64,000 nucleotides of DNA from Sinorhizobium sojae CCBAU 05684 (GTDB lineage Bacteria; Pseudomonadota; Alphaproteobacteria; Rhizobiales; Rhizobiaceae). This document shows, piece by piece, positions 30,231-37,443 of the stretch. The notes under the pieces are model-generated. The model did no database searches and was not told the DNA's origin. It was given only the letters and a program-made list of their open reading frames with translations. The first letter of the stretch is position 1; each line of letters begins with the position of its first letter. The stretch lies in the NCBI RefSeq assembly GCF_002288525.1, contig NZ_CP023068.1, positions 1,860,001 through 1,924,000 of the forward strand. The letters run 5' to 3'. Position numbers and translations under genes: made by a program.

Positions 30231-31670
30231 CTAGCCGCCGAACACCGACGTTTGTGCAAGTCTCAGAAACCAGGCGGGAAACAGGCCGATGCCGATGGTG
30301 CCGGCGGCGGTCAGGGCGAGCGTGGCGCGGACGGAGGGCGTCAGTGCCGGATCGAAGACCCTCTCCGGTTCGCGCATGTAGATCACCATCACAACCCGGA
30401 TATAGAAATAGGCGGCGACGGCACTCAAGAGCACCGCGACCACCGCCAGCGCGACGAAACCTTGCTCGACGAGCGCGACGAGCACGTAGAACTTGGCGAA
30501 GAACCCGGCCGTCGGCGGAATGCCGGCCAGCGAGAAGAGATAGAGCAGCATGAGGAACGCAAGCCCCGGATGCGACTTGGCGAAGCCCGCATAGTCCGGG
30601 ATTGCCTCGCCGGAGAAGTCGCCGTTGCGCATCATTACGACAACGGCAAAGACGCCGAGAGTCATGAAAGCATAGATCAGCAGGTAGAGCATGACGCTGG
30701 CGATCCCATCCTGGCCGCCGGCCACGACGCCGAAGATGGCGAAGCCGGCATGGGCGATGCTGGAATAGGCAAGCAGCCGCTTGATATTGTCCTGCACCAG
30801 CGCGGCAAAACTGCCGAGCGCCATGGTCATGACGCCGATCGCCGCCACGATGATCCAGACATCGGAGGCTGCGATCAGCGGGTTGAGGAACACTCTGAGG
30901 ATCACCGCAAAGCCTGCGGCCTTGGGCGCCACCGACATGAAGGCGGTGATCGTCGTGGGAGCGCCTTCATAGACGTCCGGCAGCCACATATGAAACGGCA
31001 CCGCGCCGATCTTGAAGACGAGCCCGGCGACGATGAAGACCACCGCCAGCAGAAGTGCGGGATCGCGCGGATCGCCGGTCGCCGCCGCAGTCATCCCGTT
31101 GAGAGCCGTCGTGCCGGTGAGCCCGTAGACCAGCGAAACGCCGTAAAGGAACATGCCGGTCGAGACGGCACCGAGGATCACATATTTCAGCGCCGCCTCG
31201 TTCGATCGCCGCTCCCGCCGCAGAAAGCCGGTCAGCACATAGGTGCAGAGCACCATCAGCTCCAGGCCCACATAGATCGACAGAAGGTCGGTCGCCGAGG
31301 CCATGATCATCATGCCCGACAGGCAAAAGAGCAGCAGCACATAATATTCGCTGATCCCGATCCCCTCGATTTCGGCATATTTCCGCGACAGCAGGAATGT
31401 GAGAACGGTGGCGAGGTAGAATACGAATTTGAAGAACACCGCGAAGCGGTCGACGATGAACATGCCCGAATAGGCCGGCCGCACCTCGCCGGCGAGCAGG
31501 AAGGTGGCCAAAGCGGCGATCAGCACGACCGCAACGGAAGCCCAGACGATCAGATGCTCTTGTCCCCTGCGGATAAGCTGCCCCGCGATCAACAGGATAC
31601 AGGCGCCGGTGACCACCAGGATCTCGGGCAGGCTCGCCAGCACCCACTGGTAGAGCACGGCGGCGCTCAT
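30231..31670 (-). CDS. NuoN-like antiporter subunit of a complex I-related membrane complex
   Basis: The 479-residue protein has about 14 hydrophobic helices. It carries the NuoN-type key residues: Glu in YVGLELMVLCTYVL, Lys in GLVFKIGAVPFHMWLPDVYEGAP, and the later Lys in FMSVAPKAAGFAVILRVF. Length and motifs match NuoN of proton-pumping NADH dehydrogenase. It overlaps the NuoM-like gene by 4 bp and is the last gene of a seven-gene set encoding only membrane-arm subunits, so its partner module and electron donor, if any, are not in the window. Confidence 0.88.
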   Translation of the reverse strand: MSAAVLYQWVLASLPEILVVTGACILLIAGQLIRRGQEHLIVWASVAVVLIAALATFLLAGEVRPAYSGMFIVDRFAVFFKFVFYLATVLTFLLSRKYAEIEGIGISEYYVLLLFCLSGMMIMASATDLLSIYVGLELMVLCTYVLTGFLRRERRSNEAALKYVILGAVSTGMFLYGVSLVYGLTGTTALNGMTAAATGDPRDPALLLAVVFIVAGLVFKIGAVPFHMWLPDVYEGAPTTITAFMSVAPKAAGFAVILRVFLNPLIAASDVWIIVAAIGVMTMALGSFAALVQDNIKRLLAYSSIAHAGFAIFGVVAGGQDGIASVMLYLLIYAFMTLGVFAVVVMMRNGDFSGEAIPDYAGFAKSHPGLAFLMLLYLFSLAGIPPTAGFFAKFYVLVALVEQGFVALAVVAVLLSAVAAYFYIRVVMVIYMREPERVFDPALTPSVRATLALTAAGTIGIGLFPAWFLRLAQTSVFGG

Positions 31671-33142
31671 TGGCCCCTCCCCCTGCTATGCACCTCGACC
31701 AGCAGATGCGTCACCGATGTGTCGATGATGTCGAGGAAGGGTTTCGGATAGAGCCCGACCCACAGCACGAAGGCGGCGAGCGGCAGGATCGCAGCCATTT
31801 CCCGGGCGTTGACGTCGCGCAGCGTCGGCCCGGCGCTCACGCGGACAGGACCGAGCGCGATGTTCCTGTACATGCCGAGCAGATAGGCCGCGCTCAGCAT
31901 CGCGCCGAGAATGGCGACCGCGCCGAAGGCGAGGTTCGCCCCGAAGGCGCCCGAAAGCACCAGCAACTCGCCGACGAAGGCGTTCGTTCCCGGCAGTGCC
32001 ATGGACGACAGGGTGAACAGCGCAAGAAAGGCGGTATAGACCGGCGCCACCTTCATCAGCCCGCCATATTCCGCGATGCTGCGCGTGTGGGTCCGCTCGT
32101 AGATCAGGCCGACGAACAGGAACAAGGCGCCCGTCGTTATGCCATGGTTGAACATCTGCAGGATGCTGCCCTCGAGCCCGCGGGCATTCAGCGCGAAGAT
32201 CCCGAGCGTCACGAAGCCCATATGGCTGATGCTGGAATAGGCCACCAGTTTCTTCAGATCGTCCTGCGCCAGCGCAAGGAACCCGCCATAGACGATCGCG
32301 ACCGCCGAAATCGCCAGCATCAGCGTCGAATAATAGACCGAGGCCTCCGGCAGCATCGGCAGCGAGAACCGCAGGAAGCCATAGGCGCCCATCTTCAGCA
32401 GCACGCCGGCGAGGATGATGCTGCCCGCCGTCGGCGCCTGCACATGCGCGTCCGGCAGCCAGGTATGGACCGGGACCATCGGCACCTTGACGGCGAAGGC
32501 GACCAGGAAGGCGAAGAACAGCCATGACTGGACCCCGAACGGCAGATCCTGATCCATCAGAACGAGAATGTCGAAGGTCTCGCCGCCATGGAAGTAGAGC
32601 ACGATGACGCCGACCAGGAAGAGAAGGCTGCCGGCCAACGTGTAGAGGAAGAACTTGAACGCCGCATAGACCCGGCCGTCGCCGCCCCACACCCCGATGA
32701 TCAGGTACATCGGGATCAGCATCGCCTCCCAGCAGACGTAGAACAGGAACAGGTCGAGCGCTGAGAAGACCCCCAGCATCAGCGCCTGCATAACGAGCAA
32801 GCTGATCATGAATGCCTTTACCCTGCGGTCGATTGCCACCCAGGACGCAAGCACCGAAACCGAGCCCAACAGCGCGGTCAGGAATACGAAAAGGGCGCTT
32901 ATTCCGTCGACGCCAAGAGCATAGGTAATCCCGAGTGCCGGCACCCAGGGGCGCGTCTCGGTGAACTGCATCTCATACGTGGCGGTATCGAAGCCGGCGA
33001 GCATTACCACCGTGAGCGCGAGGTCGATGACGGTAACGCCGAGCGCCGCCCACCGCACCGCATCGTCGCTGCGCAGAAACATCAGCACCGCTGCGCCGGC
33101 GGCGGGCGTGAGAATGATCAGGCTGAGGAGCGGAAATCCCAT
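31667..33142 (-). CDS. NuoM-like antiporter subunit
   Basis: The 491-residue membrane protein resembles NuoM: Glu in FLFYVCWEAMLIPMYL, Lys in AFAVKVPMVPVHTWLPDAH, the second Lys in LAGVLLKMGAYGFLRF, and the conserved SSISHMGFV segment. All residues of the proton half-channels that I can check are present. The ATG at 33142 follows GGTAGGGGG; an in-frame GTG at 33160 would overlap the previous gene. It is tightly packed between the divergent antiporter at 33151 and the NuoN-like gene. Confidence 0.88.
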   Translation of the reverse strand: MGFPLLSLIILTPAAGAAVLMFLRSDDAVRWAALGVTVIDLALTVVMLAGFDTATYEMQFTETRPWVPALGITYALGVDGISALFVFLTALLGSVSVLASWVAIDRRVKAFMISLLVMQALMLGVFSALDLFLFYVCWEAMLIPMYLIIGVWGGDGRVYAAFKFFLYTLAGSLLFLVGVIVLYFHGGETFDILVLMDQDLPFGVQSWLFFAFLVAFAVKVPMVPVHTWLPDAHVQAPTAGSIILAGVLLKMGAYGFLRFSLPMLPEASVYYSTLMLAISAVAIVYGGFLALAQDDLKKLVAYSSISHMGFVTLGIFALNARGLEGSILQMFNHGITTGALFLFVGLIYERTHTRSIAEYGGLMKVAPVYTAFLALFTLSSMALPGTNAFVGELLVLSGAFGANLAFGAVAILGAMLSAAYLLGMYRNIALGPVRVSAGPTLRDVNAREMAAILPLAAFVLWVGLYPKPFLDIIDTSVTHLLVEVHSRGRGQ

Positions 33143-33150
33143 CGCACCCC

Positions 33151-36636: not shown

Positions 36637-36640
36637 GCCG

Positions 36641-36943
36641 CTATCCTTTCATCATGGTCACGTCGTCGACCTTGAGGGTGGATTTGTTCCTCACGAGGGC
36701 GACCAGGATGCCGAGGGCGACAGCAACTTCCGCCGCGGTGATGGCGATCACGAAGATCGCGAAGATCCGCCCACGGAAGTCGCCGTGATAGTGCCCGAAG
36801 GCGATGAAATTGATGTTGACGGAGTTGAGAAGAAGCTCCAGCGACATCAGCACCACCAGTATATTCCGCCTCAGCAGTACGCCCGCCGCTCCGATGACGA
36901 ACAGCACCACGCCGAGCAGGATATACCAGGAGAGCGGAACCAT
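36641..36943 (-). CDS. NuoK-like subunit
   Basis: The 100-residue protein has three membrane helices. The conserved glutamates of NuoK/MrpC appear in [17 protein letters not shown] and [17 protein letters not shown]. The length and both glutamates are canonical. The start overlaps the NuoJ-like stop by one base (TGATG). In complex I, NuoK is a proton-channel subunit linking the antiporters to the heel of the enzyme. Confidence 0.93.
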
Positions 36944-37443
36944 CAGCCCGACTCCCTCCGCGCCAGTACGATGGCGCCGACGAGGGCCGCCAAAAGGATG
37001 ACGGACGCGACCTCGAACGGCAGGAGGTAGTCGGCAAAAAGCGTCGTCCCAAGCTGGCGGACCTCATCGCCACCGCTCACCGCAACGGGTTCGGAGACCG
37101 AAAATCGATCGCTCCAGAGCACAAGCGCCAGCATCTCGATGCCGAGCAGGCCGAGCAGCACCAGCGCCGGCAGGTTGCCGCCCGGCAAGAAGCGCTGCAA
37201 CACCGCCTCGCGCACGTCGATCATCATGATCACGAACAGGAACAGGACCATGATGGCGCCGACATAGACGAAGATCTGGATCACCGCGAGCAAAGGCGCG
37301 CCGAGCAGGACGAAAATCGCGGAGATCTGCAGGAAGCATGCCATCAGCGCCAGGGCGCTGTGAATGGGATTGCGCGCCAGCACCACGGTCAGGGCCGTGA
37401 TCACGGACACCGCAGCGAACAGAAGGAAGAACCCCTGGCCCAT
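36943..37443 (-). CDS. NuoJ-like subunit
   Basis: The 166-residue protein has five hydrophobic helices, including the NuoJ hallmark [23 protein letters not shown] segment (here [18 protein letters not shown]), which forms a pi-bulge helix in complex I. The frame is open up to 37524, but the ATG at 37443 gives the usual N-terminus and has a G-rich stretch upstream; the longer form has a charged extension and no ribosome binding site. It heads the seven-gene set, with the promoter presumably in the gap beyond it. Confidence 0.88.

Follow-up and report, generated by a model that had tools for sequence, protein, structure and literature searches.

What does the membrane arm of a respiratory complex I do when no other part of the enzyme is encoded beside it? 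The question is raised by seven genes of Sinorhizobium sojae CCBAU 05684, which lie in a stretch of 64,000 nucleotides that we call the window. Their open reading frames (ORFs) occupy 30231-37443 of the minus strand, are all open, and overlap or nearly abut their neighbours. In order, they are nuoJ2, nuoK2, an MrpD-like antiporter-type subunit (L1), a small protein (x), an MrpD/NuoL-like antiporter-type subunit (L2), nuoM2 and nuoN2. The original prediction had recognised seven overlapping genes of these kinds, which the ORFs and family scores confirm, and had offered three readings of them: a stand-alone cation/proton antiporter, a DAB-like pump, or a docking module for a partner whose genes lie elsewhere. 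In what follows, G numbers denote genomes (G000 being that of the window), L numbers denote loci, and C1, C2 and C3 are the contigs of G000, with the window on C2.

Based on the analysis below, the seven genes very probably belong to the rhizobial green complex I, a second respiratory complex I of this genome, and encode its membrane arm, with the partner genes for NuoA-G, NuoI and NuoH located at C2:46.2-55.5 kb. Besides J, K and the small protein x, the arm would hold four antiporter-type subunits (L1, L2, M and N). The two halves would act in trans and assemble into one NADH:quinone oxidoreductase; their co-assembly and a redox-driven ion pumping are what we infer from the sequences.

The partner half and its linkage

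In Pfam, the nuoJ and nuoK products match Oxidored_q3 and Oxidored_q2, and four of the seven proteins carry Proton_antipo_M (1.4e-49, 5.5e-44, 1.3e-79 and 1e-78), in agreement with the four antiporter-type subunits plus J and K that had been predicted. L1 scores above the curated cut-off of NF006236 and L2 above that of NF009310, which makes both of them members of existing NCBI families. No match above the cut-off of the NuoL model TIGR01974 is listed for any of the seven proteins, and the weak matches of nuoJ and nuoK to MbhD, MrpA and MrpC models all fall below cut-off. The protein x has no family match in Pfam or NCBIfam. Relatives of x were found in 81 of 89 loci, complex I and Mrp-type clusters alike, and the motif EDYYD stands close to the C-terminal end in most of 15 aligned sequences.

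The genome comprises 6.09 Mb in three contigs, C2 having 2,011,513 bp, and profile searches returned 14 matches to Proton_antipo_M, two to NuoD and two to NuoH. Neither NuoD nor NuoH is found in the window; the matches in the genome are at C2:48.0/54.5 kb and C1:917/924 kb. At C2:46.2-55.5 kb the genes nuoA-B-C-D-E-F-G lie on one strand, and a gene for a CBS protein, nuoI and nuoH lie on the opposite strand. Their proteins carry the expected Pfam domains, nuoI being recognised only as a 4Fe-4S protein, and the set corresponds to the linked sets of relatives. None of the 14 Proton_antipo_M matches is located at C2:46-56 kb; this is a NuoA-I set without antiporter-type genes, and the two C2 loci are thus complementary. 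If C2 is circular, nuoJ and nuoA are ~160 kb apart across the contig ends. The chromosomal nuo set at C1:915-931 kb is separate and holds all 14 subunit kinds. As a side observation, nuoG2 of the partner half and the chromosomal NuoG frame differ in length (Table 1).

The two halves are usually found together. L2 is present in all 33 genomes of the genus, and the arm is linked to nuoA in 30 of them, with a gap between nuoN and nuoA of <400 bp in 26 genomes and of 2.2-6.0 kb in G002, G004, G012 and G030. Judged by coordinates, 29 of the 33 have NuoH at 11-17 kb downstream of L2. In G030, nuoN and nuoA share a contig, 6.0 kb apart, while NuoH is on another, and the linked count by sequence is therefore 30. 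In these 30 genomes the row reads JK-L1-x-L2-MN and ABCDEFG, then CBS-I-H on the other strand, the row of G030 being interrupted by contig ends so that J-x and D-F are not seen. Outside the genus, J to G also stand in one row in G313 and G239.

History of the split

The split is found in three of the 33 genomes, G000, G001 and G024, which all belong to one clade. A combined tree of 35 genomes was rooted arbitrarily on G239; its concatenation excludes nuoE of G014 and G025 (a stop in the tblastn range) and pieces covering <60% of a gene. The nodes of the split clade have a support of 1.0 in the combined tree, 1.0 in the J-N tree and 0.987-1.0 in the A-H tree, and the four tested nodes around the split agree between the J-N and A-H trees. 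G239 and G313 fall among the Sinorhizobium members although they are from outside the genus, so that the cluster may move between genera.

The sister group of the split clade is G012 and G030, which have a 6 kb insert at the junction of nuoN and nuoA (Table 1). The kinase and response regulators inserted there may be regulators of the complex. A PAS histidine kinase similar to the inserted one is found in the window, downstream of nuoN on the same strand and beside a Response_reg/GerE regulator, and all five genomes (G012, G030, G000, G001 and G024) share a small ORF that lies close to nuoA. The kinase of the window could be the marker of an insertion that predates the split. The simplest history would be an insertion at the junction followed by a rearrangement within the insert, yet the PAS kinase was not found in the stretches examined from G001 and G024, which weighs against this simple version. 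What we propose is that the junction was broken by a rearrangement in the ancestor of the three related genomes, probably after an insertion there. A separate insertion at the same junction is seen in G002 (Table 1).

Both halves are under similar purifying selection, with a ratio of nonsynonymous to synonymous substitution rates (dN/dS) of ~0.11. The J-N half gives 0.103-0.109 among the three split genomes, against 0.071-0.125 in five linked pairs; for the A-H half the values are 0.113-0.114 and 0.082-0.117, respectively. The dS behind this comparison is 0.16-0.32. The region directly upstream of nuoA in the linked G015 can be recognised by eye in all three split genomes, and the A-G half may thus have had a promoter of its own already.

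Distribution beyond the genus and Mrp-type clusters

GTDB genomes were scanned with an L2 alignment and the best 80 of 582 relatives were analysed. J/K or M+N lie beside L1/L2 in 67 of the 80, and 61 of these arm-bearing loci also show other nuo genes. The record titles of the 61 point to Desulfobacterota-type bacteria, Nitrospirota, Verrucomicrobia, Planctomycetes, Marinimicrobia, Acidobacteria, and beta- and gammaproteobacteria. The fetched flanks of the 80 loci hold all of nuoA-D in 45 cases and nuoA-F in only 11; many loci may therefore be without a local NADH module. The other 13 loci show L1-x-L2 or L2 without nuoA-F, H, I, J or K, and two of them (L099 and L101) have a NuoG and a NuoM match. 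L2-like proteins with differing C-terminal segments, likewise without nuoA-F, H, I, J or K, were seen at L070, L089, L090, L099, L100, L128 and L129, and none of six of them (all but L100) ends in QTG.

In L045, from another member of the order, L1-x-L2 are the last three genes of an Mrp-type cluster with the order MNHE, MrpF, PhaG, MbhD/MbhE, MnhB, MrpC-like, MrpD-like, L1, x, L2. Their proteins are identical to those of the window at 48% (L1), 40% (x) and 47% (L2) of positions and stand in the same order, yet no nuo genes were found at L045, and its L2 has 60 residues, against 79 in green L2, in the lateral-helix segment described below. In L043, L044, L046, L047, L049 and L050, too, an additional antiporter-type match lies ahead of L1. 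Judged by this homology, the L1-x-L2 module is common to green complex I and an Mrp antiporter.

Alternative explanations

The homology with L045 is what would favour a stand-alone multi-subunit cation/proton antiporter, Mrp-like and working without NuoA-I. However, the seven proteins give no match to the MnhB, MNHE, MrpF and PhaG Pfam models, while J, K, M and N score as NuoJ/K/M/N-like families. The arm is linked to nuoA in most of the genus, and the six of the 67 arm-bearing loci in which no other nuo genes are seen all run into a contig end on one or both sides. We consider such an antiporter very unlikely, and the independent system of the original prediction gives way to a split complex I, given that NuoA-I genes are linked in 30 of the 33 genomes. 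A DAB-like CO2/bicarbonate pump tied to RuBisCO is less credible still. The RuBisCO large-subunit gene that would support it is indeed in the window, as had been noted, but it lies 27 kb from the arm and no DabA (PF10070) match exists in the genome. DAB consists of DabA plus one DabB and not of a JKLLMN set. A link to autotrophy, also raised earlier, has no support in this analysis besides this distant gene, and of the three readings only the docking module with its partner elsewhere is retained.

The broken operon in three genomes might also be a decaying relic, in which the split inactivated the complex and both halves are being lost. Yet the ORFs are open, dN/dS of both halves is as low as in the linked genomes, and both halves are retained in three genomes, one per species, so that decay seems a poor candidate, about as improbable as the stand-alone antiporter. 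Nothing was found that speaks for an artefact of assembly, and we hold this to be scarcely conceivable, since the split is seen in the three-contig assembly of G000 and separately in G001 (three contigs, halves 151 kb apart) and G024 (both sides of the junction within contigs).

Several points weigh against a split green complex I as the explanation. The J-N and A-H trees have just 24 of 32 bipartitions in common. A consensus scan gave no sigma-70-like promoter upstream of nuoA in L019, a locus with only the other half, nor on the operon strand at 30000-38000 of the window. No FixK-like box with >8/10 matches was found upstream of nuoJ or nuoA in 16 upstream regions. In addition, cross-pairing with the chromosomal set is conceivable in principle, either of its J-N with the A-H half on C2 or of its A-I with the J-N half.

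The TM7 lysine and the lateral helix of L2

Another question that is raised by green complex I is whether all of its antiporter-type subunits pump protons. In L2 of the window, Asn200 stands at the position of the lysine of transmembrane helix 7 (TM7), although the glutamate is kept, while L1 retains both TM5 Glu143 and TM7 Lys225. The survey comprised 95 complex-I-type loci, some with only the other half (such as L019), which gave ORFs for 92 L2, 90 L1, 88 NuoM and 85 NuoN. Asn is found at the L2 position in 91 of the 92 loci, from several phyla, and the remaining one has a gap. The TM7 Lys is retained in L1 (90/90), NuoM (88/88) and NuoN (85/85). The survey of the segment described below gives Asn for every one of 88 loci that hold nuo genes. 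In a further 35, in which no nuo genes are in view, the residue is Asn in 29, Lys in five (L043, L046, L049, L050 and L051) and Ser in one, so that Asn is not confined to complex I. A NuoL ORF with GKSAQ was found in each of 23 NuoL loci, but these ORFs were selected by this very string, and their TM7 Lys is partly due to the selection.

According to passages of one paper, Glu144 and Lys229 of NuoL are universally conserved in each antiporter-like polypeptide and have a severe effect on complex I, while in the paper's own complementation test K229A behaved like the non-mutated protein (PMC4938563). We found no mention of the Asn/Lys replacement in the available part of PMC9040806 or in a literature search, and it could be in print in Chadwick et al. 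(2018).

L2 also differs from NuoL in the segment that belongs to the predicted lateral helix. Of the 88 loci that hold nuo genes, 86 have a segment D488..G566 of 78-81 residues; in the other two, the Nitrospirota loci L080 and L088, it has 105 and so exceeds the rhizobial length by 26. Among the 35 loci without nuo genes in view it has 59-60 residues in 12 and 79-81 in 14, the latter including the window and other arms separated from their partners, and 0, 49, 84, 95, 106 or 109 residues in the other nine. Four loci (L034, L037, L040 and L048) gave no L2 match in this count, and L035 only part of L2. The corresponding D..TG segment of canonical NuoL could be counted in 17 of 23 sequences and has 53 residues in each; L177, L178, L179, L180, L182 and L184 did not fit the motif expression and stand outside this count, and the comparison of L2 with NuoL rests on equating two short motifs. 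The lengthened helix of L2 would fit an arm with one additional subunit.

A rule by which the lateral helix gains 26 residues per extra antiporter subunit (53, 79, 105) was considered and dropped. L080 has 105 residues, yet four antiporter-type genes were found at this locus, and the stretch before the D..Y motif is longer in the NuoL of the genome than in L2, so that the gain from the end of TM15 is <26 residues (~13 by hand count).

An L2 model built with 23 sequences has a mean pLDDT of 79.5. It shows a long C-terminal helix (491-563) of low confidence (blocks of 53-66) and a last helix at 569-589, and residues 204-218, which adjoin Asn200, have a pLDDT below 50. In Foldseek, MrpA and NuoL chains rank at the top of the matches to this model, with a large root-mean-square deviation. 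L2 would sit at the distal end of the arm, from where its lateral helix would extend alongside L1, M and N.

L2 has been suggested in print to be a 'fourth pump', and judging from these residues it may have no canonical proton channel. One possible option, which we put forward tentatively, is that the four antiporter-type subunits of green complex I are not equivalent as proton pumps: L2 would either serve as an anchor at the end of the arm, with its lateral helix lengthened, or move another ion, and the three canonical proton channels would be kept.

Relation to known systems

Green complex I is described, in the parts of the literature available to us, as a complex in which two MrpD-like subunits replace NuoL (PMC7415380; PMC9040806). 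On pSymA of S. meliloti, an excerpt places NuoA-G in the centre, NuoJ-N on one side, and NuoH and NuoI on the other side and the opposite strand (PMC3382624). The set of G000 resembles this nuo2 cluster in its MrpD-like pair in place of NuoL and in its order of J-N, A-G and I/H on the opposite strand, and its L2 is 86.5% identical to a protein encoded at 1.35 Mb of S. meliloti 1021 NC_003037.1. Both the MrpD-like pair and a NuoA-I set of the same lineage are found in G000, while the contiguous cluster is not: J-N and A-I lie as separate pieces at a great distance from each other on the same replicon. Gene order is treated here as no functional requirement for green complex I. As excerpted, a recent survey finds that most complex I clades mix split and single-cluster forms (PMC12361115), and a split by itself is then not unusual.

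The green set has the same 14 subunit kinds as canonical complex I, of which the chromosomal set is an example, and adds subunit L1 and the small protein x. It is not itself canonical, since canonical complex I has one NuoL, with Lys in TM7 and a D..TG segment of 53 residues, where green L2 has Asn and 79 residues. It is very probably neither an Mrp antiporter, which has MrpA-G, nor a DAB pump, which has DabA. Complex_I_3 of 'Ca. Manganitrophaceae' and the 2M complex I of Nitrospira also have more than three antiporter-type subunits, and the MrpD-like pair is common to Complex_I_3 and the green set, but both of those complexes carry a second NuoM, unlike the green set (PMC9040806, in part). 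Complex_I_3 has, in the same partial source, a further insert of 26 residues, and the size gap of the two Nitrospirota loci (105 against 79) is similar.

Green complex I has been proposed to be raised in symbiosis and to aid N2 fixation, a claim given second-hand in the portion of PMC7415380 available. In our set, 30 of the 33 Sinorhizobium genomes carry nifH, G000 with two copies on C3. It was not found, at the threshold used, in G006 and G015 (both rated 99% complete), which keep the green complex; the complex is thus not strictly tied to nitrogenase.

Features of the window and other loci

The coordinates are collected in Table 1. A longer TTG frame of nuoJ2 starts at 37524; by eye, this frame differs by an indel in G001. 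One flank of the arm holds a DUF4153 protein, a response regulator with Trans_reg_C and a histidine kinase, which is the two-component system expected there, and the other flank holds a proline racemase. A PQQ dehydrogenase-like gene also lies in the window. Elsewhere on C2 there is another antiporter cluster, L022, for which no family cut-off is passed among the matches listed.

Table 1. Location of the seven genes and of other features mentioned in the text (aa, amino acids)
Feature	Location	Strand	Description
nuoJ2	36943..37443	minus	166 aa from ATG; PF00499 2.1e-39
nuoK2	36641..36943	minus	100 aa; PF00420 1.3e-28; NF004320 over cut-off
L1, MrpD-like antiporter-type subunit	35170..36636	minus	488 aa; NF006236 (PRK08375.1-1) 825.7 bits, cut-off 663
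x, small protein	34919..35173	minus	84 aa; between L1 and L2; membrane-type by eye
L2, MrpD/NuoL-like antiporter-type subunit	33151..34926	minus	591 aa; NF009310 (PRK12668.1) 777 bits, cut-off 564
nuoM2	31667..33160	minus	497 aa; TIGR01972 631.8 bits, cut-off 263.8
nuoN2	30231..31670	minus	479 aa; TIGR01770 515.3 bits, cut-off 332.6
PAS histidine kinase	23215..26487	minus	1090 aa; 82% identical to the kinase between nuoN and nuoA in G012, G030
RuBisCO large-subunit gene	2468-3391 (C2:1862468-1863391)		sole PF00016 match in the genome
PQQ dehydrogenase-like gene	11456-13264		
Insert between nuoN and nuoA	L034 (G012) 10274-16156; L157 (G030) ~1390-7430		histidine kinase and, by eye, response regulators
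Separate insertion between nuoN and nuoA	L036 (G002) 7621-10951		3.3 kb; 597-aa ORF, PAS-like by eye
nuoG2	L019:10732-13326		865 aa; molybdopterin-oxidoreductase domains and Molybdop_Fe4S4; chromosomal NuoG frame 697 aa
L022, antiporter cluster	G000 C2:976.4-983.8 kb		MrpG-like gene and three antiporter-type genes

Significance

The enzyme type is already known, and the split at the junction of nuoN and nuoA is confined to one small clade. By assigning the seven genes to green complex I, the false lead of a stand-alone 'headless' complex I is removed, and a natural example is gained in which two operons far from each other encode one complex I and can be compared with sister species that have no split. 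The Asn of L2 and its near-constant lateral-helix segment bear on how many subunits of an enlarged complex I pump. If L2 is not a canonical channel, green complex I would have three proton channels although it has four antiporter-like subunits, at odds with the fourth pump that has been suggested in print.

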